A stretch of 64,000 bases of DNA from Alphaproteobacteria bacterium (GTDB taxonomy: Bacteria; Pseudomonadota; Alphaproteobacteria; UBA9219), in NCBI GenBank assembly GCA_009779135.1, contig WREW01000001.1, positions 237,498 to 301,497 on the forward strand. Reading direction: 5' to 3'. The position numbers were made by a program, and so were the translations under genes. The first letter of the stretch is position 1. The number at the start of each line of letters is the position of its first letter. This document shows positions 20,156 through 47,238 of the stretch, in pieces. Below the pieces are notes generated by a model that saw nothing but the letters and a program-made list of their open reading frames with translations, did no database searches and was not told the DNA's origin.

Positions 20156-22879
20156 CTAACCACCCGCCCCGTGGCAGTGCTTATACTTCTTCCCGCTGCC
20201 GCAGGGGCAGGGGGCATTGCGGGGTGTGTGAGTCCAGCTTGAGGAGTCATTCGGATTAAACACCGTGCGCACAGGTTTGCGCGCCAGTTCATAATGGCCT
20301 TGCGCCGCTTGATCCAAAGCTCCGTCTTGGGATGCGGCAGTACCGGAAAGCTCCATCATTTCCTGCTGGCGCTGTTTTGCAATATATTCTTCCAAAGTCG
20401 GCACACGCACCTCAATGTGCAAAAGCGCTTTGATAACCTGCTGCCGCACATCATCAAGCATCAGGTGGAAAAGCTCAAAAGACTCGCGGCTATATTCGTT
20501 GAAGGGATCGCGCTGGCCATAGCCGCGCAGATGAATGCCTTGCCTGAGCTGGTCAAGCGCCAGAAGATGATCCTTCCAGGCCACATCCAAAAGCCCCAGC
20601 AGCGCGGCTTTTTCAGCCAGAGCCATGCGCTCAGGCCCCACAAGCTTGCGTTTTTCGGCCATGCTGTCCGCGGCGACTTTGTTCAGGCGCTCTTCAATTT
20701 CGGTTTCCGCAATGCCGTCTTCTTTTGTCCAGCTTTCGATGGGAAGATCAAGCGCAAGGATTTCCTTGCTTTTATCCTTGAGGCCCTGAATATCCCACTG
20801 CTCATAATAAGAGTGGGGCGGAATAGCGGCCGCAACCATTTTCTGAATAACATCCATGCGAAGCTGCGCGATTTCTTCGCTGACTTCATCAGCTTCCATA
20901 ATGGTCTTGCGCTGCTCATAAACAACCTTGCGCTGGTCATTCATCACATTGTCGAACTTGAGCAGGTTTTTGCGGATGTCAAAATTGCGCTCTTCCACCT
21001 TCTTCTGCGCTTTTTCAAGCGCGGCTGAAATCCAGGGATGCGCGATTTTCTCGCCATCGCGCAGACCTAAAGAGGCCAACACATTTTCCATCCGCGCCGA
21101 GCCGAAAATGCGCATCAGATCATCTTCCAAAGAAAGATAAAACTTGGATGAGCCGGGATCGCCCTGACGGCCTGAACGGCCACGCAGCTGGTTGTCGATG
21201 CGGCGGGATTCATGGCGCTCCGTGCCGATCACAAAAAGCCCGCCCGCGCCGAGAGCTTTCAGCGCATCAGCGGCAATGTCGGCGCGAACTTCATCAACCG
21301 TGCGCGCGCGCGCCTGTTCGTCCGTGATGCCTTCAAGCTCATGTTCAAGCCGCATGTCAAGATTGCCGCCAAGCTGAATATCCGTACCGCGCCCCGCCAT
21401 ATTGGTGGCGATTGTCACAGTCCCCGAACGGCCAGCTTGCGCGATAATTTGCGCTTCCTGTTCGTGATAGCGCGCGTTAAGGACATTATGGCGAATGCCG
21501 TCTTTCTTCAAAAGGCCCGAGAGCGTTTCAGATTTTTCAATAGAGACCGTGCCCACCAAAACAGGCTGGCCGCGCATCTGGCAGTCTTTGATCTGCGCCA
21601 CGATCGCTGCGTATTTTTCCTTGATGGTGCCATAGACCTCGTCTTCCATATCCACGCGCGCGGGCGGCAGATTGGTGGGAACGGAGACCACCTCAAGACC
21701 GTAAATCTCGCCGAACTCAGCCGCTTCGGTCATGGCTGTGCCGGTCATGCCCGCAAGCTTGGGATAAAGGCGGAAATAATTTTGAAAAGTGATCGACGCC
21801 AGAGTCTGGTTTTCGCGTTGAATGGTTACACGCTCCTTGGCTTCGAGCGCCTGATGAAGCCCGTCCGAAAAGCGCCGTCCGTCCATCATGCGGCCTGTGA
21901 ACTCGTCAATGATAATCACCTTGTCATCCTTGACGATATAATCGACATCCCGCGAAAAAAGCTTGTGCGCGCGCAAGGCCTGATTGACATGATGCACAAC
22001 AGCGATATTTTGCGCGTCATAAAGCCCGCCCCCGGGCGTTAAAAGATCCGCCCCGCCCAAAAGCCGCTCGATCGTTTCATTGCCAGCCTCGGTCAGAGTC
22101 ACGGTTTTTGATTTTTCGTCCTTTTCGTAATCTTCTTCTTTCAAATGAGGAATCAGCCCGTCAATCGTCCTGTAAAGCTCGGAAGAATCCTCAGCAGGGC
22201 CCGAGATGATAAGAGGCGTGCGCGCCTCATCAATCAAAATGCTATCGACCTCATCGACAATCGCGTAATTGAAGGGGCGCTGGCATAAATCAGGGGCTTC
22301 GAACTTCATATTGTCACGCAGATAATCAAAGCCGAACTCGTTGTTCGTGCCGTAGGTTACATCGGCATTATAGGCCTCCTGCCGCTGCGCATCATCCATG
22401 CCGTGAACAATGCAGCCCACGCTCATCCCAAGAAAACGGTAAATGCGGCCCATCCAGATGCTGTCGCGTTTGGCGAGATAATCGTTGACCGTCACCACAT
22501 GCACGCCTTTGCCGGAAAGCGCGTTAAGATAAACCGGCAAAGTGGCCACCAAAGTCTTGCCTTCACCCGTTTTCATTTCGGCAATGCGCCCGTCATGCAA
22601 AACCATGCCCCCGCGCAGCTGCACATCATAGTGACGCTGCCCCATCACGCGACGCGAGGCCTCGCGCACGGTGGCAAAAGCCTCGGGCAAAAGATCGTCC
22701 AGAGTCTCCCCCTGCGCAAGGCGGGCTTTGAAAAGGGCTGTCTGGCCCCGCAAGGCCTCATCACTCAGCGCAGCGATCTGAGGCTCCAGCGCATTGATGG
22801 CCGCCACGTTTGAATCCTGCCTGTGCAGAATGCGGTCATTGTGAGATCCGAAGATTTTGCGCGCCAAAGCCGAGAGCAT
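20156..22879 (-). CDS. secA: Preprotein translocase ATPase SecA
   Basis: From the ATG at 22879 the product is 907 residues, starting [17 protein letters not shown] start 32 codons earlier adds non-homologous sequence. Walker A is KTGEGKT at 103-109, and the [16 protein letters not shown] segment is Walker B plus neighbouring SecA signature. GTDIQLGGN and [20 protein letters not shown] mark motor domain 2. The C-terminal zinc site [14 protein letters not shown] binds SecB and phospholipid. It drives export of unfolded proteins through SecYEG. Monocistronic, divergent from a glycosyltransferase gene. Confidence 0.97.
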
Positions 22880-23070
22880 AAGAAACCTCAACATCAGAAA
22901 AGAAAAAGACCCTATAAAAAGAGGAAGATTCCTCTTTCCCCTTGGTGTTCTCTTATATGAGGCCTTGCCTGCCATAAGACAAGGGTCTTGGTGAAAAGAT
23001 TAAGGGCGACAAAAGCCGCGCTTTTGGTTAATCTCGGCAGGAGAGAAAAGAGGCGGCCAAAGGCAAACCC

Positions 23071-35657: not shown

Positions 35658-36809
35658 GTGTCCCAAGACGCTTTATCGCCCCAAAAATCCTTGCCTGAGT
35701 TTGCGCGCGGCCATGTCGTTATTGTGGATGACGACCCGACCAACCGCGTGTTGCTGCGCAACTTATGCGAGAAGCTCGGCATAGGCATTATTGACGAGGC
35801 CGAAGATGGCAATGTCGCTTATGAGATCATCACGCGCTTTCAGCCGGATCTGATTTTGCTTGATGTGCGCATGCCGCGCATGGACGGGCTTGAGCTGATG
35901 AAGCGCCTGCGCAAAGACCCTGTCTTTGACCGGCTTTCGATTCTGGTGCAGACCAGCATGCAGAGCGAAGAGGATCATGTGCGCTGCTTTAATTCCGGCG
36001 CCACGGACGTCATCACCCGTCCTTTTCATCTGGCCGAGCTTAAAGCGCGCATTACGGCGCATTTGCGTTCAGCCATCGCCGCGCGGGTTTTGTTTGATTT
36101 CCGCAAAAGGATTCAGGCGCATATCGAAATCACGCATACTTTTCTGGATGCGGTGCTGCCCTCGTCCGAGACGATTGAAGCGCTTGCGTATGATTACGGC
36201 GTCAGCATTTCTTCCGTTTACAGACCGCATGACGAGATCGGCGGCGATCTTTGGACTCTGCGCGCGCTTTCCGATGACCTGCTTGGGCTTGTGCTGGTGG
36301 ATGCCAGCGCGCACGGTCTTGCAGGCGCCATCAATACGCTGCGCGTGGATTGTCTTGTTCAGGAATATATGGAGGATCTTTATGATCCCGGGATTTTTCT
36401 TGGCAAGCTGGATGCGGCCATGGCCAAGATTTCTTATGGCCAGCTTTTTGCCGGCGCTTGCGCGCTTACTTTTCATAAAAAAACGGGGCAGGTGCTTTAT
36501 GCCGGCTCTGCCATTCCTTATCCTTTCCACATTACGGGCCAGAAAGTGCATGTGATGAAAACGCGCGGCCTTCCTTTGGGGTCCGGCGCTGTGCAGGTTG
36601 AAACGCAAAGCATCACCATGGCCAAGGGCGATACGCTGGTTCTTTACAGCGACGGCTGGTCGGAAAGCATCATACGCACCCCTGAAGATATACTTCTTCA
36701 TGCCGATCTTGGTGCGCCTTTTCTGGCCGAAACTCTGGCGCCCAAGGGCGACATCATTGACGACATGACCTTAATCACACTTCAAAGGAGGTTTACCGAT
36801 GGGATTTGA
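35658..36809 (+). CDS. Response regulator with PP2C/SpoIIE-type phosphatase domain
   Basis: The GTG-start product is 383 residues. The receiver domain (19-135) has acidic D24-D26, phosphoacceptor D69 in LILLDVRMPRMDG and T99. The near-invariant lysine is arginine (R121 in ITRPF), which is unusual. The C-terminal SpoIIE/RsbU phosphatase domain (about 180-380) keeps the metal-site aspartates: DEIGGDLW, LVDASAHGL, LYSDGWSES and DDMTLITL. Family proteins dephosphorylate STAS anti-anti-sigma factors when the receiver is phosphorylated. The next gene encodes such a STAS protein, overlapping by 11 bases, so this is an RsbU/HsbR-like element controlled by the neighbouring kinase. Confidence 0.9.
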   Translation: MSQDALSPQKSLPEFARGHVVIVDDDPTNRVLLRNLCEKLGIGIIDEAEDGNVAYEIITRFQPDLILLDVRMPRMDGLELMKRLRKDPVFDRLSILVQTSMQSEEDHVRCFNSGATDVITRPFHLAELKARITAHLRSAIAARVLFDFRKRIQAHIEITHTFLDAVLPSSETIEALAYDYGVSISSVYRPHDEIGGDLWTLRALSDDLLGLVLVDASAHGLAGAINTLRVDCLVQEYMEDLYDPGIFLGKLDAAMAKISYGQLFAGACALTFHKKTGQVLYAGSAIPYPFHITGQKVHVMKTRGLPLGSGAVQVETQSITMAKGDTLVLYSDGWSESIIRTPEDILLHADLGAPFLAETLAPKGDIIDDMTLITLQRRFTDGI

Positions 36810-37116
36810 ATTTCAACGCAAGGATGATGATCTTGTTGTGAATCTTACAGGCGTTCTGACTTTTCATCATCACAAGGAAGGCGAGCATCTCGTCAAACAA
36901 ATCACGACCATGGTCGATAAAGGAGAAATAAAGATCGTACGTCTGAACTTTGAGAATGTCACGCGCATGGACAGTCACTGGCTTGGCGTTCTGATCCGCA
37001 TTTTAAGGCGCGTGCGCGACAAAGGCGGAACCTTTATCGTTGAAAAGCCCAATCAGGATCTTATGAAGCTTTTCGACATTGTTGAACTTGGCCGTATTGC
37101 AGAAATAAGGACATAA
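36799..37116 (+). CDS. STAS-domain anti-sigma factor antagonist (RsbV-like)
   Basis: The 105-residue single STAS domain reads LVVNLTGVLTF...RLNFENVTRMDSHWLGVLIRIL. The phosphorylation loop keeps D58-S59, but the next two positions, normally S/T-G, are H60-W61. S59 is the likely phosphoacceptor. Such proteins bind and neutralise an RsbW-type kinase when unphosphorylated. AAGGAGG seven bases before the ATG gives strong initiation inside the end of the phosphatase gene. The predicted kinase follows after five bases. Confidence 0.88.
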   Translation: MGFEFQRKDDDLVVNLTGVLTFHHHKEGEHLVKQITTMVDKGEIKIVRLNFENVTRMDSHWLGVLIRILRRVRDKGGTFIVEKPNQDLMKLFDIVELGRIAEIRT

Positions 37117-37121
37117 AAGTC

Positions 37122-37616
37122 ATGAATGAACCCGCCATCAAAAAGTTCGGTCTTCTCAAAGGTGAAGACTACGCTCCGGCCATCAAAGCCATGGAGCATC
37201 CGGATACATTTTACAAAGCTCTTTTCGATAAGCAGGCTTTGTGGGATCCGGCGACCATTGACCGCGTGCTGCAAAGCTTTCCGCAAGGCTTGATCGATGA
37301 GACGGATTTATTCCTGATTCTGGCCGAATGCATCGCCAACGCCGTTTTGCACGGTCAGGCCGAGATTTTAGGCTTTCACGCGCGCAAAAGAGGCTCAGTC
37401 CTGCTTCTGTCTTTTTATCAGATTCCTGCCATGCAGATGCGGGTCGGGATTGTGCTTTCTTTAGCGCGGGCCGGACAGATCAGGGAATGCACGGCGGAAA
37501 TCCCGGGCGGCCTTGGCTTTCCCATCCTGCTGCGTCTGGTGGATAAGATAACGATCAGCAATGATTACAAACGCTTGCAGCTTTGGATGCAGGAAAAAAG
37601 TGCAAAAACCGCTTGA
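37122..37616 (+). CDS. RsbW-like ATPase-fold protein (partner-switch kinase/anti-sigma type)
   Basis: The 164-residue protein has an HATPase_c_2-like core. The N-box is LAECIANAVLHG with E69 and N73, and the C-terminal G2-like stretch is PGGLGFPILLRLVDKI. The G1 box, normally D-x-G-x-G/A, is absent: the position reads SFYQIPAMQMRVG. ATP binding or kinase activity may therefore be weakened or altered. The first 50 residues are an extra N-terminal region. By order (phosphatase, STAS, this gene) it should be the partner-switch kinase or anti-sigma factor. No sigma factor gene is adjacent, so its final target is unknown. Confidence 0.75.
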   Translation: MNEPAIKKFGLLKGEDYAPAIKAMEHPDTFYKALFDKQALWDPATIDRVLQSFPQGLIDETDLFLILAECIANAVLHGQAEILGFHARKRGSVLLLSFYQIPAMQMRVGIVLSLARAGQIRECTAEIPGGLGFPILLRLVDKITISNDYKRLQLWMQEKSAKTA

Positions 37617-37662: not shown

Positions 37663-38628
37663 GTGACCCATGATCTCGATATTTTAGAAAGAGGCCGCAA
37701 GGTTCTTTTACAGGAAAGCGAAGCTTTAAGCCGTCAGGCGCAGCTTTTGGATGACAGCTTTGTCAAAGCCGTGCGGTTAATTATCGATTGCAATGGCCGC
37801 GTGATTGTCACGGGCATGGGCAAAAGCGGCCATATCGCGCGCAAGATTGCGGCGACTTTGGCCTCGACAGGACAGCCTTCGCATTTTGTGCATCCCGGGG
37901 AGGCAGGGCATGGCGATCTTGGCATGATCGTCAAAGGCGATGTTGTCATAGCGATTTCCAACAGCGGCGAGGCGGCAGAATTGGCCGCTATTTTGCACTA
38001 CAGCCGGAGATTTTCTATTCCGCTGATTGCGATCACAAGCGGCCATGAAAGCACGCTTGCGGTGGCCGGCGATATTATTTTGCTTTTGCCCAAGGAACCG
38101 GAAGTCGGCGCAGGAGGTCTTGCGCCGACGACATCAACAACCATGACGCTGGCGCTTGGTGACGCTTTGGCCGTGGCTGTCTTTGAAAGTCGCGGCTTTT
38201 CGCCTGAAGATTTCAAAAACTTTCACCCGGGCGGCAAATTGGGCCGCGCTTTGCTGCGGGTTGAGGAAATCATGCACCCGCGCGAGTCCCTGCCGCTTGT
38301 AAAGAAAACAGACACAATGGACCATGTTCTGGTTGTGATGACGGAAAAAGGCTTTGGCTGTGCGGGCGTTGTGGATGAAACGGGCCATCTTGAAGGCATC
38401 ATTACAGATGGCGATCTCCGGCGGCATATGAGCAAGGATCTTGTGCAAAAAACCGCCGCCAGCCTGATGACGCGCCATCCCATGACCGTGGCCCCACGCC
38501 TGATGGCGGTTGAAGCGCTTAATATCCTGAACGAAAAAAAGCGCACGCAGGTGTTTGTTGTGGACTCACAAAATATACCGGTGGGGATCCTGCATATTCA
38601 TGACCTGCTGCGTGCGGGGATTTCGTGA
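37663..38628 (+). CDS. kdsD: D-arabinose-5-phosphate isomerase
   Basis: A GTG start with AGGAGG six bases upstream gives 321 residues. The SIS domain (about 35-175) contains VIVTGMGKSGHIARKIAATL, the key GEAGHGDLGM and SNSGEAAEL segments. Two C-terminal CBS domains follow (IMHPRESLPLV..., LMTRHPMTVAP...). The enzyme interconverts ribulose-5-phosphate and arabinose-5-phosphate, feeding KdsA for Kdo synthesis. It lies 46 bases after the partner-switch genes and may be read from their transcript, although the functional link is not evident. Confidence 0.94.
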   Translation: MTHDLDILERGRKVLLQESEALSRQAQLLDDSFVKAVRLIIDCNGRVIVTGMGKSGHIARKIAATLASTGQPSHFVHPGEAGHGDLGMIVKGDVVIAISNSGEAAELAAILHYSRRFSIPLIAITSGHESTLAVAGDIILLLPKEPEVGAGGLAPTTSTTMTLALGDALAVAVFESRGFSPEDFKNFHPGGKLGRALLRVEEIMHPRESLPLVKKTDTMDHVLVVMTEKGFGCAGVVDETGHLEGIITDGDLRRHMSKDLVQKTAASLMTRHPMTVAPRLMAVEALNILNEKKRTQVFVVDSQNIPVGILHIHDLLRAGIS

Positions 38629-39216
38629 GGGGGCCAATGGCCCGCCAAGCATCCACGCGCCTAACTCATCGTCATAGACCCATGTTTGCAGCAAAGTAAA
38701 GGCAGGGGCATCACCATACATAAAACGACCCCTTGGATTATCATTGGCAAGATCAAAAGCCTTGTCCGCAATTTGCTCTAATGGTTTGCCGTTAACTTCA
38801 ATTTCATATTGCATCAATTTTGCCCAACGCGCGGTAAAATCAATCATTCTTTTCTCAAAAAAAGAGTCCCCACAAACATCGACAATTGTACGCCATGCGT
38901 CGGGATCTTTAAGTTTAAGGGGCGTGGCCGCGACAATATTTTGTACAGCTGCCGCTTTGACGGTTTTCAGCGTATCCAAAACCTTTACCGTAACAGGCGC
39001 GTCAACCCCGCGCAGGAAAAAATCAACACGCGCAACCTGCGCGGAAGGCATAAGACAAAGCGCCGCCCGCGCAACCTCTTCAATATCATAACCGCCCTTG
39101 ACCTTGGCCGTGGCGCGTCTTTCATCACTTTCGGCGGACGGCTCGATGATTTTAATATCCCGAAACGGGTTCAACAAATTGGGCGGATTTGCGTTGGAAG
39201 ATATAGAAAGTTTCAT
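38566..39216 (-). CDS. Hypothetical protein, 216 residues
   Basis: I do not recognise this protein. It is soluble, lacks a signal peptide, and has segments ARAALCLMPSAQVARVDFFL, DPDAWRTIVDVCGDSFFEKR and FTARWAKLMQYEIEVNG that suggest a mixed alpha/beta domain. Its 3' end overlaps kdsD by 63 bases on the opposite strand, and a family A repeat lies just upstream of its start. Real coding is supported by length and absence of a better frame, but the start and the overlapping tail are uncertain. Confidence 0.6.
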   Translation of the reverse strand: MKLSISSNANPPNLLNPFRDIKIIEPSAESDERRATAKVKGGYDIEEVARAALCLMPSAQVARVDFFLRGVDAPVTVKVLDTLKTVKAAAVQNIVAATPLKLKDPDAWRTIVDVCGDSFFEKRMIDFTARWAKLMQYEIEVNGKPLEQIADKAFDLANDNPRGRFMYGDAPAFTLLQTWVYDDELGAWMLGGPLAPSRNPRTQQVMNMQDPHRYIL

Positions 39217-39386: not shown

Positions 39387-40403
39387 CTAATAAGCCTTTT
39401 TCGGCGGCTTGGAGAGCGTGTTGTTGCTTTGGATGGTGTTCATCCGCGCGATTTGCTTGTCGATATAGGAATTAATCATCCCGACACGGTTTTCGCGGAT
39501 CAGCGCGCGGATGGGATCGCCGTTATTGCCTTCCTCGGTGACGATATAGCGCAAAAACGGCCCCGATGTGTTGAGCGTCTGGTGCATGGCCCCCGTCAAG
39601 CCCTGCGCCAGCAAAAAATTGGCCGTTGAAGCCCCCATGGCCTGTTCCGCCAGATGCACAAGGCCCATCAGGCTTTCCTCAATAGATCCGGCATGGATGG
39701 TGGTGATGACAAGATGTCCTGTTGTTGAAGCGCGCAGGATTTGTTCCGCCGCGCGGGGCGAGCGAACCTCACCCACCAAAAGAAACCGTGGCGTCCAGCG
39801 CAAAGCGCGTTTCAAGGGCGAGGCCCAGTCTTCATCCTTGTTGACCTGAACCTGATAGCAATAGCCATATTCACCCACAGCACCGCCCAGAGCATATTCA
39901 ACAGGATCTTCCACCGTGATGCCGACTCCGCCGAAAGCGACCATAAAATCATTCAAAAGACCGAACGCCGTGGTGGTCTTACCCTGACCCGTGGCCCCTG
40001 AAATCACAATCAACCCGTCGCGCGTGCCAAGACGCCGCAGATGCGTGCAGATATGGGGCGCAAAAGAAAGATCCTCAAGCCGTGGCACTTTGGTGTTGAT
40101 ATAGCGCAAACAGACCCAGTCTTCGCTGTTGGCCAGACGCTGGTAGGAAAGACGGAAACGCTGCCCGCCATATTCAAAAGACGTGTCAGGATTTTCAATT
40201 TGCCCGCGCAGGAGCGAGGCGACTTTTTCCACCTCTTCCATATATTCAGGCGGAACGGGGCGAGTCCAGTTATTGGTGTGATCACGCACCGGCGTGCGGT
40301 AGCGCGCTTGCCCGGGCTGGTCAATGCGCAAATAAAGATCCATAAAAGAAAGATCAGACAGCTTCACAGGCCCCTGATTTTTTTTCACAGTTTCATCAAA
40401 CAT
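39387..40403 (-). CDS. DotB/PilT-type secretion ATPase, catalytic-looking copy
   Basis: A GTG codon precedes the ATG at 40403 in frame; either may start translation (338-339 residues). Walker A is GATGQGKTT at 137-145, the Asp box is ITVEDPVEY, Walker B is FLLVGEVRSP, and the His box is TTGHLVITTIHAGS. All residues expected of a working PilT/DotB/TraJ hexameric ATPase are present. Such ATPases power type IV pilus retraction or Dot/Icm-like type IVB secretion. No pilin or secretion partner is in the window. It lies 21 bases after a paralogue, in an operon begun by pyrC. Confidence 0.87.
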   Translation of the reverse strand: MFDETVKKNQGPVKLSDLSFMDLYLRIDQPGQARYRTPVRDHTNNWTRPVPPEYMEEVEKVASLLRGQIENPDTSFEYGGQRFRLSYQRLANSEDWVCLRYINTKVPRLEDLSFAPHICTHLRRLGTRDGLIVISGATGQGKTTTAFGLLNDFMVAFGGVGITVEDPVEYALGGAVGEYGYCYQVQVNKDEDWASPLKRALRWTPRFLLVGEVRSPRAAEQILRASTTGHLVITTIHAGSIEESLMGLVHLAEQAMGASTANFLLAQGLTGAMHQTLNTSGPFLRYIVTEEGNNGDPIRALIRENRVGMINSYIDKQIARMNTIQSNNTLSKPPKKAY

Positions 40404-40427
40404 CACGTCAAGGCCTTTCAGGACAGA

Positions 40428-41441
40428 TCACTTGCGAATGGGTGGCAGCGGCGGCAGCGGAGGACGAGGCTGCTGCATCGCGGGTGGAGGAGATTTCGGC
40501 ATCTGGTGGGCAAGACGCGCGGCGACGCGGTCGATGTAAGTTGACATCATGCCGATTTTATTTTCGCGGATCAGCGCGCGCACGGGATCTGCGGCTGCGC
40601 CTTCTTCCGTAAAGAGGTAATGCACAAAGGGGCCGTCTTCTTTCAGCGTCTGGTGGATCAGCGCGGTCATCGCGCCGCCCAGAATATCGCGCGTCCCCGC
40701 GCCCATGGCCGGTTCAGCCAGATAGAGCAGGGAGGTCAAAGCCTCTTCAGGCGTGCTGCCGTGAATGGTTGTAATCACAGTGTGCCCTGTTGCGGCGGCC
40801 TGAATAAGCTGTTTGGCGGCTTCAGGCGTGCGGACATTGCCGACAAAAAGATAACGCGGATTCCAGCGTGCGGCATGCTCGATCATATCCGCCCAGGCCT
40901 CGGCCCCGTTCACTTCAAGCTGAAAACATTGCCCGAGCGTGCCATGGCGGCCTTTGAGAATATATTCAATCGGGCTTTCCACCGTAAAAGCAAGACCGCC
41001 GTAAGTTTCCAGAAAATGCACCAGCAAAGCCGCCGCCGTGGTGGTTTTGCCTTGTCCTGATGAGCCAGAAATCACAATCAGCCCCGCGCGTTCCCCCAAT
41101 GAACCGATATGGTTGAGGATATGAGGCGCAAAACCGAGATTCTGAAACTTCATAAGCTCGGCATTAATACGTTGGGCGCAGGCCCAGACGGAGCCGTCCG
41201 CCATTTTTTGCTGCATGACAATCATGCGCACGCCATCCACGGTCATGGCGCCTTCATTGCTGTCTTTCAGCGTGGCGCGCACATTCACGCCGAACTGCTC
41301 CACCACAGGCCAGAATGCCTCAGGCACGATCTGGTTGACCATGGTTTGCCCCTGCTCTTGCGAGCGGTAAAGGGGCGTGTCCGGCTGATCCAACCGGACA
41401 TAGAGATTGACAAAGGGAAGCTGATGAAGCGGTGCAGACAT
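40428..41441 (-). CDS. DotB/PilT-type ATPase paralogue with altered catalytic residues
   Basis: The 337-residue product aligns along its length with the next gene's protein. Walker A SGSSGQGKTTT and His box TGHTVITTIHGST are kept. The Asp box is TVESPIEY instead of TVEDPVEY, and the Walker B glutamate is asparagine (YLFVGNVRTP versus FLLVGEVRSP). It can probably bind nucleotide but is likely poor at hydrolysis. A Pro-rich tail (PPPAMQQPRPPLPPLPP) is unique to this copy. A mixed hexamer or regulatory partner is the natural guess. It begins 12 bases after pyrC. Confidence 0.84.
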   Translation of the reverse strand: MSAPLHQLPFVNLYVRLDQPDTPLYRSQEQGQTMVNQIVPEAFWPVVEQFGVNVRATLKDSNEGAMTVDGVRMIVMQQKMADGSVWACAQRINAELMKFQNLGFAPHILNHIGSLGERAGLIVISGSSGQGKTTTAAALLVHFLETYGGLAFTVESPIEYILKGRHGTLGQCFQLEVNGAEAWADMIEHAARWNPRYLFVGNVRTPEAAKQLIQAAATGHTVITTIHGSTPEEALTSLLYLAEPAMGAGTRDILGGAMTALIHQTLKEDGPFVHYLFTEEGAAADPVRALIRENKIGMMSTYIDRVAARLAHQMPKSPPPAMQQPRPPLPPLPPIRK

Positions 41442-41453
41442 GAGTGAAAAACC

Positions 41454-42509
41454 TTAACAGGAAGATGAAGGCTCTACAAGCCGCCAGAGGGGCGGCTGCG
41501 TCAAAGGAAAGCTTATAATTTCTGCGCCCTCGTCCGTTAAGATCGGCTTAAAAGGGGCAGGGGACTCATCTGTCTTTTCAAGCGTTATCGTGCCCGTATT
41601 GGGTGCAACGCCGTAAAAAGCTGCGCCGTTATGGCTAAGAAAGGCGGCAAGCTTGTCAAGGGCGCCTTCTTTTTCAAAAGCTTGCGCGTAAAGCCCCAAA
41701 GCATGCGGCGCTGAAAAAATACCGCCCGCGCCGGAAGAGCTTTCTTTGGCCGCGCGCGGATGCGGGGCGCTGTCGGTGCCGGCAAAAAACTGACTCGCGC
41801 CGGAAGTGGCGGCCTTGAGGACGGCCAGGCGATCTTCTTCCCTTTTCAAAACGGGCAGGCAAAAATGATGAGGCTTGAGCCCGCCTTCAAAAATGGCGTT
41901 GCGGCTGAGCGTGATATGATGGCAGGTGATGGTGGCGGCAAGGTCTGCCCCTGCCTCTTGAACATAATTGACGGCATGGCGGGTTGTGACATGCTCCAAA
42001 ATGATTTTAAGCGCGGGAAATTGCTTGCGCAGCGGGATCAGGATTTTATCGACAAAAACAGCCTCGCGGTCAAAGAAATCGACTGCCGGATCCGCCACCT
42101 CGCCATGGATCGAAAGAGGCATACCGATTTTTTCCATGCGCTCAAAGACGGCAATTAAGGCCTCAAACCGGCTGACCCCATGCTGGGCATTGGTCGTGGC
42201 CCCTTGGGGATAAAGCTTGGCCGCAAAAAGATCACCATTTTGAAAGCCTTGCGCCAGATCATCAGCATTTGTGTGATCGGTAAGGTAAAGCGTCATCAGC
42301 GGCGTGAAATCGCAATTTTCAGGCAGCGAGGACAAAATGCAGTCACGATAAGCCCGCGCCAGCGCTGCGGATGTAATAGGCGTGTGAAGATTGGGCATCA
42401 CAAGAGCGCGGGCAAAGGCGCGGGCGGTATAGGGCAAAACGGCCCTTAAAATAGCCCCATCGCGTAAATGGACATGCCAGTCATCAGGGCGGGGAAGGGT
42501 CAGAATCAT
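41454..42509 (-). CDS. pyrC: Dihydroorotase (PyrC type)
   Basis: The 351-residue amidohydrolase has the metal ligands H12 and H14 (DDWHVHLRDG), the lysine K98 that is carboxylated (AAKLYPQGATTN), H135 (SIHGEV), H173 (LEHVTT) and D246 (GTDSAPH). This is the E. coli-like class II enzyme. It interconverts carbamoyl aspartate and dihydroorotate in pyrimidine synthesis. It is the first gene of a unit that continues into the two secretion-type ATPases, an odd grouping, and is divergent from hisS. Confidence 0.95.
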   Translation of the reverse strand: MILTLPRPDDWHVHLRDGAILRAVLPYTARAFARALVMPNLHTPITSAALARAYRDCILSSLPENCDFTPLMTLYLTDHTNADDLAQGFQNGDLFAAKLYPQGATTNAQHGVSRFEALIAVFERMEKIGMPLSIHGEVADPAVDFFDREAVFVDKILIPLRKQFPALKIILEHVTTRHAVNYVQEAGADLAATITCHHITLSRNAIFEGGLKPHHFCLPVLKREEDRLAVLKAATSGASQFFAGTDSAPHPRAAKESSSGAGGIFSAPHALGLYAQAFEKEGALDKLAAFLSHNGAAFYGVAPNTGTITLEKTDESPAPFKPILTDEGAEIISFPLTQPPLWRLVEPSSSC

Positions 42510-43980: not shown

Positions 43981-46900
43981 ATGTCGCCGCCGCGCCATAA
44001 AAAAAAGGCAGTTGCTCCACCCGCGCGGCGTCCCAAGGCATCTTCAAAAACAACGCGCAAAAAAAAGCCCTACAAGCCTTATCGCATGCGCATGCCCGGC
44101 GCGATCCTTTTGATTCTTTTTGTCATGATGTTCGGTTTTGGCGGCGTGATAGGATCTTTTTGCGCCGAGGAAATTAAAACATCCAGACTTCAGGCGCATT
44201 ATCTTTCTCGTATCGCCAAAGACATCACCTTTGAAATGAAGGAAGGCAAGACGCCCGGCCATTATATTCCTGCATTCGGCCCCTACAACCAGCGTCTGGG
44301 CTATAGCGGTCTTCCCGCTTTTTTCAAGGCGCTTGAGAAAGAAGGCTACAGCATCGCTGCGCAAATGCGCGCGTCACCCATGTATGACCGCGTGATTGCC
44401 GAAGGTTTTTACCCCATTTACCGCCCCAAAACCGTCACCGGCCTGACGATCAAGGATCGCAGCGGCCATCTGCTTTACAGCGCGCAATTTCCCGCGCATG
44501 TTTTTCCGACATTTGAAAGCGTCCCGCCGCTTCTTATTGATACGCTTTTGTTCATTGAAGACCGCGAAGTTCTGAAAGACGGCGCGTTCAGCCACAATCC
44601 CGCCATTGAATGGAGCCGTTTCTTTTACGCGGCTTTCGGACAGGGGCTGCGGTATTTTATGCCTCACATCAACTTTGGCGGCGGAAGCACGCTTGCCACA
44701 CAGATTGAAAAGTTCCGCTTTTCGCCCGGGGGACAGACCAGAGATATTTTTGAAAAAATCCGCCAGATCGTTTCCGCCAGCCTGCGCGTTTATCAGGATG
44801 GCGAGGACACAAGGGAGGCGCGCAAAAAAATAATTCTGGATTACCTCAACAGCACCCCTTTAAGCGCGCGGCAGAACTTCGGCGAGATTCACGCCATAGG
44901 CGACGGGCTTTGGACTTGGTTCGGGCATGATATTGCGACAATAACGGCGGCTTTGAATCTGCCTGAAAGCGACCCTGAATCGTTGCGCGCCAAAGCCACG
45001 CTTTACCGCGATGTGCTCGGCCTTATTCTCGCGCAACGCCGCCCGAGCTATTATCTTTTAACCGACCGCGCGGCTTTGGATGTTTTGACGGATCAGACTT
45101 TGGACAATCTTTTAAAAGGCGGTGTGATTTCGCCGGTTCTGCGCGATGCCTCGCGCAGCGCAAGATTTCGCTTTTTGCCCAATCCGCCGGCCATGCAGCC
45201 GGTTTCTTTCCTCGACCAAAAAGCGCCCAATGCCCTGCGCGCGCAGCTTCTCAAAACATTGGGCGTTGCCAATCTTTATGCGCTTGACCGGCTGGATCTG
45301 ACAGCCGACAGCACGCTGGATCAGAAGGTTCAAAAAGAACTTATCATTTTTCTTAAAAATATGAGCAACCCCGAACATGTGGAGCGCATCGGCCTTTACG
45401 GCCACCAACTTTTGCAGCCGGAAAGCGATATAAGTCAGGTTCGCTGGAGCGTTTTGCTTTATGAAAAGGGCGATGCCGGCAATTTGCTGCGGCTTCAGGC
45501 GGACAATATTGACGAGCCTTTGGATATGAATGACGGGGCCAAGCTGGATCTCGGCTCCACCGCCAAACTGCGCACGCTTGTTACTTATCTTGAAATTATC
45601 GGCGAACTCCACCGCCGCTATGCAGGGCTTTCAATCGAGGATCTCAAGGAACTGGCGCACGAAGCGCCGGATGCCTTAACGCTTTGGGCCACGACATGGC
45701 TTGCCGCTTATCCCGAAGCGTCTTTGGATGATATGCTTGAAGCGGCGCTTGATCGCAAATACGCAGCTGACCCGCAGGAGGTCTTTTTCACAGGCGGCGG
45801 CCAGCATGTTTTTTCCAACTTTTCAAAAACGGATAATGGACGCATTGTCGATCTGCGCGTGGCCTTGCGCGATTCCATCAATCTTGTTTTTGTGCGTTTG
45901 ATGCGCGACATCGTCAACTACACCATCGCACAAGGCCAGCAAACAAGGCAGGAGCTTTTAAGCGATTCCGACCATCCCGCGCGGCGCGAATATCTCGAAC
46001 GCTATGCCGACAATGAAGGGCAAGTTTTTCTCGGGCGTTATGTCAAAGACTATAACAACCTTGATCGCGCGCAGATTGTCGAGCGCATTGCGCGGCGCGG
46101 GCATAGAGGCGCAACGGCGCGCGCCATCCTGTTCCGCGCGGTGGATCCTACGGCGCCTTTCGGAACCTTTGTGCATTATATGCGGGATGTGGCCGGTCTG
46201 ACGCTGGATCAGGAAAAACTCCGCGCGCTTTTCAACAATTATCCGCCCGAGCGCTATAATCTGTCGGATCGCGCTTATATCACGGGCACAAACCCGCTTG
46301 AGCTTTGGCTGGCCTCGTACAAAATCGCAAATCCGGCAGCCACGCGCAGCGCTATTTTAGCCGTCAGCCGTCCTGTGCGGATTGAAAGCTATGCGTGGCT
46401 GTTTCATCCCAAAAGAAAAGGCGCGCAGGATACGCGCATTCGTATCTTGCTGGAGCTGGACGCTTTCGCGCGCATCCAGCAGCGCTGGGCGCGGCTTGGT
46501 TATCCTTTTGACAGGCTGGTGCCGAGCTTTGCCACATCCATCGGCACATCAGCCGACCGCCCGGGCGCTTTGGCGGAGTTTGTCGGAATCCTCGTCAATG
46601 ACGGCATGCGCAAGCCCATGATGAAGTTTGAGCGTTTGCATTTTGCCAAAGACACCCCTTACGAGACGATCCTCACCCCCGCCAAAGAAACAGGCCTGCG
46701 CGTTTTGGATCCCGCCGTGGCGCGCGCGGCGCGGCGCGTGATGATGGAGGTCGTCCAAAGCGGCACGGCGCGGCGGCTTTATGGAGTCTATACCAATGAA
46801 AAAGGCCAGCCGCTTGTGGTCGGCGGAAAAACAGGAACAGGCGATCATCGCTATGATGAATACGGCCCCGGGCACAGGCTGATTTCCTCGCGCGTGGTCA

Positions 46901-47238
46901 ACCGCACGGCCACGCTGGTGTTTTTTATCGGCGACCGCTTTTTCGGCACAATCACCGCACATGTGGCCGGCCCAAAAGCTGGCGATTATAAGTTCACAAG
47001 CGCCCTGTCCTCACAAATGCTGAAATCCCTTGCGCCCGTGCTCCAGCCCCTCATCGCCCGCCCGGGATTGTTGGAAGATAAAGATGTTCTTTTGACTATA
47101 GAGCAACCCGCCACATTGCCGCAGGAACCGCCGCAGAAACCGGAAATCAAAAAACCACCAAAACCCACAACGCCGCCCAAACAAACGCCAATCCGGACTT
47201 ACGATCAGGATCTCTTGATGGACGTGCTGCCGCGTTAA
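43981..47238 (+). CDS. Large divergent class A penicillin-binding-protein-like protein
   Basis: The 1085-residue protein has a basic cytoplasmic N-terminus and one membrane anchor (about 38-60). A GT51-like domain (about 180-340) has FIEDRE at 192-197, GGSTLATQIEKF at 234-245 and FEKIRQIVSASLRV at 257-270. The transpeptidase domain has S526-TAK529, S632-I-N634 and K950-TG. The roughly 315-residue distance between SxN and KTG is long and implies an inserted helical domain. GT motifs depart from classic PBPs: the usual glutamate of the R-K-x-x-E motif appears as Gln262. The C-terminus is Pro/Lys-rich. It should act in periplasmic peptidoglycan synthesis, perhaps mainly as a transpeptidase. Confidence 0.82.
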   Translation: MSPPRHKKKAVAPPARRPKASSKTTRKKKPYKPYRMRMPGAILLILFVMMFGFGGVIGSFCAEEIKTSRLQAHYLSRIAKDITFEMKEGKTPGHYIPAFGPYNQRLGYSGLPAFFKALEKEGYSIAAQMRASPMYDRVIAEGFYPIYRPKTVTGLTIKDRSGHLLYSAQFPAHVFPTFESVPPLLIDTLLFIEDREVLKDGAFSHNPAIEWSRFFYAAFGQGLRYFMPHINFGGGSTLATQIEKFRFSPGGQTRDIFEKIRQIVSASLRVYQDGEDTREARKKIILDYLNSTPLSARQNFGEIHAIGDGLWTWFGHDIATITAALNLPESDPESLRAKATLYRDVLGLILAQRRPSYYLLTDRAALDVLTDQTLDNLLKGGVISPVLRDASRSARFRFLPNPPAMQPVSFLDQKAPNALRAQLLKTLGVANLYALDRLDLTADSTLDQKVQKELIIFLKNMSNPEHVERIGLYGHQLLQPESDISQVRWSVLLYEKGDAGNLLRLQADNIDEPLDMNDGAKLDLGSTAKLRTLVTYLEIIGELHRRYAGLSIEDLKELAHEAPDALTLWATTWLAAYPEASLDDMLEAALDRKYAADPQEVFFTGGGQHVFSNFSKTDNGRIVDLRVALRDSINLVFVRLMRDIVNYTIAQGQQTRQELLSDSDHPARREYLERYADNEGQVFLGRYVKDYNNLDRAQIVERIARRGHRGATARAILFRAVDPTAPFGTFVHYMRDVAGLTLDQEKLRALFNNYPPERYNLSDRAYITGTNPLELWLASYKIANPAATRSAILAVSRPVRIESYAWLFHPKRKGAQDTRIRILLELDAFARIQQRWARLGYPFDRLVPSFATSIGTSADRPGALAEFVGILVNDGMRKPMMKFERLHFAKDTPYETILTPAKETGLRVLDPAVARAARRVMMEVVQSGTARRLYGVYTNEKGQPLVVGGKTGTGDHRYDEYGPGHRLISSRVVNRTATLVFFIGDRFFGTITAHVAGPKAGDYKFTSALSSQMLKSLAPVLQPLIARPGLLEDKDVLLTIEQPATLPQEPPQKPEIKKPPKPTTPPKQTPIRTYDQDLLMDVLPR

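Follow-up and report, generated by a model that had tools for sequence, protein, structure and literature searches.

A tandem pair of PilT-like ATPases

The window (the whole stretch of 64,000 nucleotides analysed here) contains two ATPase genes in tandem on the minus strand, as a sequence-only reading of the same DNA had reported. Gene A (positions 40428..41441), which is transcribed first, encodes a protein of 337 aa that is altered at its active site and predicted to be non-hydrolysing, and gene B (39387..40406) encodes an intact PilT-like ATPase of 339 aa in which all catalytic residues are present. Both proteins belong to the T2SSE superfamily (PF00437), with scores of 74.8 bits for A and 96.1 bits for B against a gathering cut-off of 24.9. 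The best NCBIfam model for both is PilT/PilU (TIGR01420), at about one third of its cut-off (A 96.7 and B 111 vs 319.1 bits); the models for DotB (TIGR02524; 52.8 bits each vs 463.3) and TraJ (A 72.5 and B 71.2 vs 368.3) yield even lower scores relative to their own cut-offs. When a profile of canonical relatives of A and B was compared with solved structures, PilT scored highest (126 bits), followed by PilU (102), GspE (84) and DotB (80), and the match to PilT takes in a segment that reads VRALIREN in A and IRALIREN in B and aligns with AIRNLIREN of PilT. AIRNLIRE is described as a motif of the PilT family in the excerpt of PMC6153414 available to us. PilT was also the top Foldseek match (TM about 0.5) of an AlphaFold model of A with a mean pLDDT of 64.5, which is too weak for placing single residues.

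Directly upstream of A lies a syntenic amidohydrolase gene, probably encoding dihydroorotase (pyrC; 41454..42509, minus strand; PF01979). Across 12 loci (11 at most, as L041 and L047, both of 44,462 bases, appear to be the same contig), the conserved neighbours of the pair are pyrC, hisS, a transglycosylase gene and an RlmN-like gene. This neighbourhood gave no lead as to what the pair does.

Residues lost and retained in A

A has ESPIEY and VGNVR where B has EDPVEY and VGEVR, and Walker A is intact in both. Alignment and codons thus bear out the observation that A lacks the Asp-box Asp and the Walker B Glu while B is intact. In the Asp box of A (40962..40979) E155 is kept and D156 is replaced by Ser (AGC), and at codon 202 (40836..40838) the catalytic Walker B Glu is replaced by Asn (AAT). 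Under the standard genetic code AGC differs from any Asp codon, and AAT from any Glu codon, at two or more bases, so single sequencing errors do not explain either change.

The pair had been said to differ exactly where catalysis matters; the residues named were the right ones, but A has lost more than these. Codon 74 (41220..41222; Arg to Ile) aligns with the first arginine finger and codon 90 (41172..41174; Arg to Gln) with the second, in profile alignments both to PilT and to the DotB encoded in this genome; R189H, E210K, G229S and others are further changes. In Legionella pneumophila DotB the finger positions are Arg104 and Arg123, which, in the ATP state, have been proposed as contacts of the gamma-phosphate (PMC6153414, in part). 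We compared A with 79 homologous sequences, comprising 29 A, 31 B (including those of this genome and of genome G012), 16 third paralogues (including that of this genome; matches in G004, G020, G022 and G030 were not counted) and three more distant proteins. R74, R90, K132, E155, E202 and H227 are invariant in all 79, D156 is kept in 77 and H220 in 76. The A of this genome has I74, Q90, S156 and N202, and it retains Walker A (residues 126-134; 41040..41066), K132, E155, and H220 and H227 of the His box (40761..40784). The Walker B Glu and the two arginine fingers are therefore all absent from A (E202N, R74I, R90Q) and all present in B, and the loss of catalytic residues is special to this A among the A/B homologues.

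The Asp box had been cited as one of the sites of lost function. D156 is indeed gone, but in PilB it is the Glu of this box that coordinates Mg, and this residue is kept in A as E155; the Glu after Walker B activates water, and it and the two fingers are completely conserved across PilT-like ATPases (PMC5424180, as far as the accessible portion of that paper goes). On the roles of these residues in PilB and DotB, A appears to retain the set that serves binding and to have lost mostly the set that serves hydrolysis, a post hoc reading of the alignment. A should still bind Mg-ATP, since it keeps the P-loop, the His box and the Asp-box Glu that coordinates Mg, and should neither hydrolyse ATP nor sense its gamma-phosphate, given the loss of the Walker B Glu, both finger residues and the Asp-box Asp.

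A and B orthologues across the order

We compared 33 genomes of the order and six of the genus, this genome (1.55 Mb, 40 contigs) being counted in both. The A-B tandem is found in 30 of the 33, this one included. The exceptions are G012, in which pyrC directly adjoins B and A is cleanly absent; G013 (62% complete), which gave no match; and G032 (89% complete), in which only a third-paralogue-like match was found. The three nearest named loci by sequence carry the labels Micavibrio (n = 2) and Rhodospirillaceae (n = 1), and the nearest relatives share only about 60-64% identity. In a tree of 87 rows (PilT rows having been cut from 14 to 6, and PilB- and PilQ-like rows left out), the 30 A sequences group together (SH-aLRT 91), as do the 30 B sequences with the G012 copy (100), and the A/B duplication groups apart from PilT; how A/B branch with respect to PilT and DotB is unsure, as the DotB row sits on a very long branch. 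We regard A and B as an old tandem of PilT-like motor ATPases that is typical of this alphaproteobacterial order, and the ancestral pair would have been catalytic in both members.

The Asp of the Asp box and the Glu of Walker B are found in all 29 other A orthologues, the five others of the genus among them, and the altered residues are thus private to this genome among those examined. The suggestion that the E-to-N and D-to-S changes might be conserved in orthologous pairs does not hold at the level of either order or genus, and a conserved pair of one dead and one active member is ruled out by the very outcome that the sequence-only reading had named as refuting it. Since relatives in other species kept the catalytic residues, the altered state looks like a recent species-level change, and not a design feature of the pair. 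What survives of the proposed catalytic/regulatory pair is an intact paralogue beside one that is probably dead and still constrained; it is not a property of the pair in general.

The Pro-rich C-terminal tail of A (40431..40505), which ends in PPLPPLPPIRK, had been taken as unique to the altered copy. It is instead a trait of the genus: the end PLPPLPPIR[K/R] is common to all six members, and since the five catalytically normal A orthologues have it too, the tail does not mark the altered copy. The linker that precedes this end varies freely among the genus members, which suggests that the end is a short binding motif still needed by A.

A third, catalytically normal PilT-like paralogue lies elsewhere in this genome (L037:10686-11660, contig C15), directly behind fliP in a flagellar cluster. 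Its distribution in the order is patchy. The position behind fliP is seen in this genome and at four loci of the same genus; fliP was not found in the available stretches of the other 11 third-paralogue loci searched. The copies in G018 and G020 have in-frame stops.

Constraint on A

Among the 82 columns that are invariant in the other 29 A sequences, ten are changed in this A, compared with two at most in any other A; in B of the same genome one of 101 is changed. With smaller sets of sequences, the changed invariant columns in this genome number 20 of 113 in A, 2 of 136 in B, 28 of 160 in pyrC (a count that rests on six sequences only), 19 of 191 in hisS, 39 of 368 in the transglycosylase gene and 9 of 144 in the RlmN-like gene. 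As invariant columns have changed in the other genes too, this genome represents a fast lineage, and such changes are not confined to A. Terminal branch lengths (A 0.52, hisS 0.47, transglycosylase 0.44, pyrC 0.40, RlmN-like gene 0.27, B 0.20) indicate that the overall rate of A is close to that of its housekeeping neighbours. Within the A clade, this A has the longest end branch (0.67, vs 0.10 and 0.14 for its sisters); taken with the fast genome and the changes in pyrC, this makes some loss of constraint on A likely.

The 337 codons of A form an open frame free of stops. In neutral simulations run to 25% amino-acid change, stop codons averaged 3.8, and only five of 200 runs ended without one. 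Of the 216 residues invariant in the genus, A has kept 174 (B, 217 of 243); these include all 15 immediately ahead of the P-loop and 10 of the 11 tail residues.

Candidate machines for the pair

The sequence-only reading found no pilus or secretion genes nearby. This holds for the window proteins that were scanned (8 + 20, part of the window's ORFs), SecA (20156-22975) being the general translocase, but elsewhere the genome has a Dot/Icm-like locus and two loci for type IV filaments. The Dot/Icm-like locus, a chromosomal locus of the type IVB secretion kind (about 128-156 kb on contig C1; L038, L065), encodes DotD, DotC, its own DotB, two DotI/IcmL proteins, DotH and a TrbI-domain protein that falls under the Pfam cut-off, intermixed with a secretin, PilO, T2SSE, T2SSF and a PilS-like prepilin; we take this last set to resemble the thin-pilus genes of IncI plasmids. 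A second secretin/T2SSE/T2SSF locus lies on contig C4.

The DotB of this genome is a separate gene (L038:7993-9366) beside dotD-dotC, whereas A and B lie beside pyrC and unrelated genes; neither can be the genome's DotB, and the earlier label of DotB/PilT-type ATPases is right at the level of the superfamily only. Elimination, together with the segment resembling AIRNLIRE, points to A, B and the third paralogue as candidates to drive retraction or act as motors at the type IV filaments of this genome. The machine served by the pair would probably be a retractile type IV filament, because both A and B carry the PilT-like segment. Among 32 genomes searched, 28 of them from the order, 24 gave a match to DotH and 25 to DotC, in every case within the order. 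The 2011 genome paper on Micavibrio aeruginosavorus, in the part available to us, reports no evidence of a type IV secretion system (PMC3189940).

Comparison with known systems places the pair nearest to the PilT/PilU tandem of type IVa pili, which likewise pairs two motor ATPase paralogues of similar length; PilT is also the best solved-structure match, by profile for the relatives and by fold for A, and shares its characteristic segment with both proteins. According to an excerpt of PMC6762196, PilU of Vibrio cholerae works only with PilT, and A would by analogy depend on B as its active partner. The two systems differ in that A and B score far under the PilT/PilU cut-off, lie outside any pil locus and group apart from PilT in the tree, and in that the Walker B Glu lost from A is still present in PilU (E202 by the V. 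cholerae numbering; PMC6762196, same excerpt). With DotB of Dot/Icm type IVB systems the pair shares superfamily and fold, in a genome that has a Dot/Icm-like locus; the separate DotB gene and the low DotB scores of A and B set them apart. TraJ of IncI-type plasmids has the superfamily in common with A and B, which remain far below its cut-off.

Interpretation

We consider it probable (roughly 0.6) that A is a species-specific pseudo-ATPase, which would bind but not hydrolyse ATP, is still under selection and is most likely a structural or regulatory partner of the active B. On this reading of the alignments, the change of A into a pseudo-ATPase took place only in this genome's lineage, among those examined. 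Against it we count the longest end branch of A, the fast genome, the changes in pyrC and the pLDDT of 64.5 for the model of A; the altered residues are seen in a single genome, and no second one is known.

The main rival, which we hold possible but clearly less probable, is that A is on its way to being lost: dispensable beside B and sometimes a third paralogue, it would have lost catalysis first, with loss of the gene to come as in G012. That relative, with pyrC directly beside B and no A between them, indicates that A may be on the way out, and the in-frame stops in third paralogues of G018 and G020, the long end branch of A and the small genome point in the same direction. Simple decay is weakened, however, by the open frame without frameshift, the overall rate of A, which is similar to that of essential neighbours, the stops predicted under neutrality, and the retention of most genus-invariant residues and of the tail motif. 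Random decay or sequencing error is thus an unlikely source of the changes in A. Error in sequencing or assembly is by itself the least credible of the explanations: the changes come from one genome of 40 contigs without a close strain for comparison, but they involve at least two base changes at several codons and leave the frame open, and A lies on a 302-kb contig with conserved synteny. It is also improbable, if somewhat less so, that A retains some ATPase activity through a rearranged site, for example with another acidic residue in place of the Walker B Glu and R91 in place of R90. R91 adjoins the position of the lost R90, both E155 and the His box are still there, and a distant homologue (L085) has D156S in an otherwise normal site, so that this change alone need not be fatal; yet none of the 79 other homologues departs from the catalytic Glu or from Arg at either finger position, and the portion of PMC5424180 available describes these residues as completely conserved across PilT-like ATPases.

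If A is a pseudo-ATPase partner of B, the two might co-assemble as a natural mixed-ring motor, in which here part of the ring would consist of ATP-locked, non-hydrolysing subunits, leaving the motor with fixed catalytic positions. We hold this to be rather doubtful, and mixed rings have been argued against for PilT/PilU (PMC6762196, in the excerpt available). Were it true, the tandem found across the order would encode a PilT-like motor that is obligately heteromeric, of a kind that we did not find described in the excerpts of papers available to us. The pair bears on whether paralogous retraction ATPases assemble into mixed or separate rings. A species where most of the hydrolytic set has gone from one partner, with body and tail still constrained, offers a natural experiment: should A and B still co-assemble, it would test how many active subunits a PilT-like motor needs. 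Our literature search found no reports on Micavibrio with DotB, on inactive PilT paralogues or on degenerate Walker motifs in pilus motors. The case also illustrates that a residue change seen in a single genome should be checked against orthologues before a conserved division of labour is proposed.

Other genes in the window

Downstream of the pair, on what is a bacterial chromosome, a gene for a 216-aa protein (38566-39216, minus strand) matches Tad4, an inhibitor of Thoeris anti-phage defence (31.3 bits, cut-off 25); it is not conserved in the 12 (11 at most) neighbour loci compared. A response regulator with a SpoIIE phosphatase, a STAS protein and a third small protein are encoded in a row at 35658-37616 (plus strand), presumably as a partner-switching regulatory module. 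The transglycosylase gene (43981-47238, plus strand) encodes a protein of 1085 aa with a transglycosylase domain and no matched transpeptidase domain, and is conserved beside hisS in the order.
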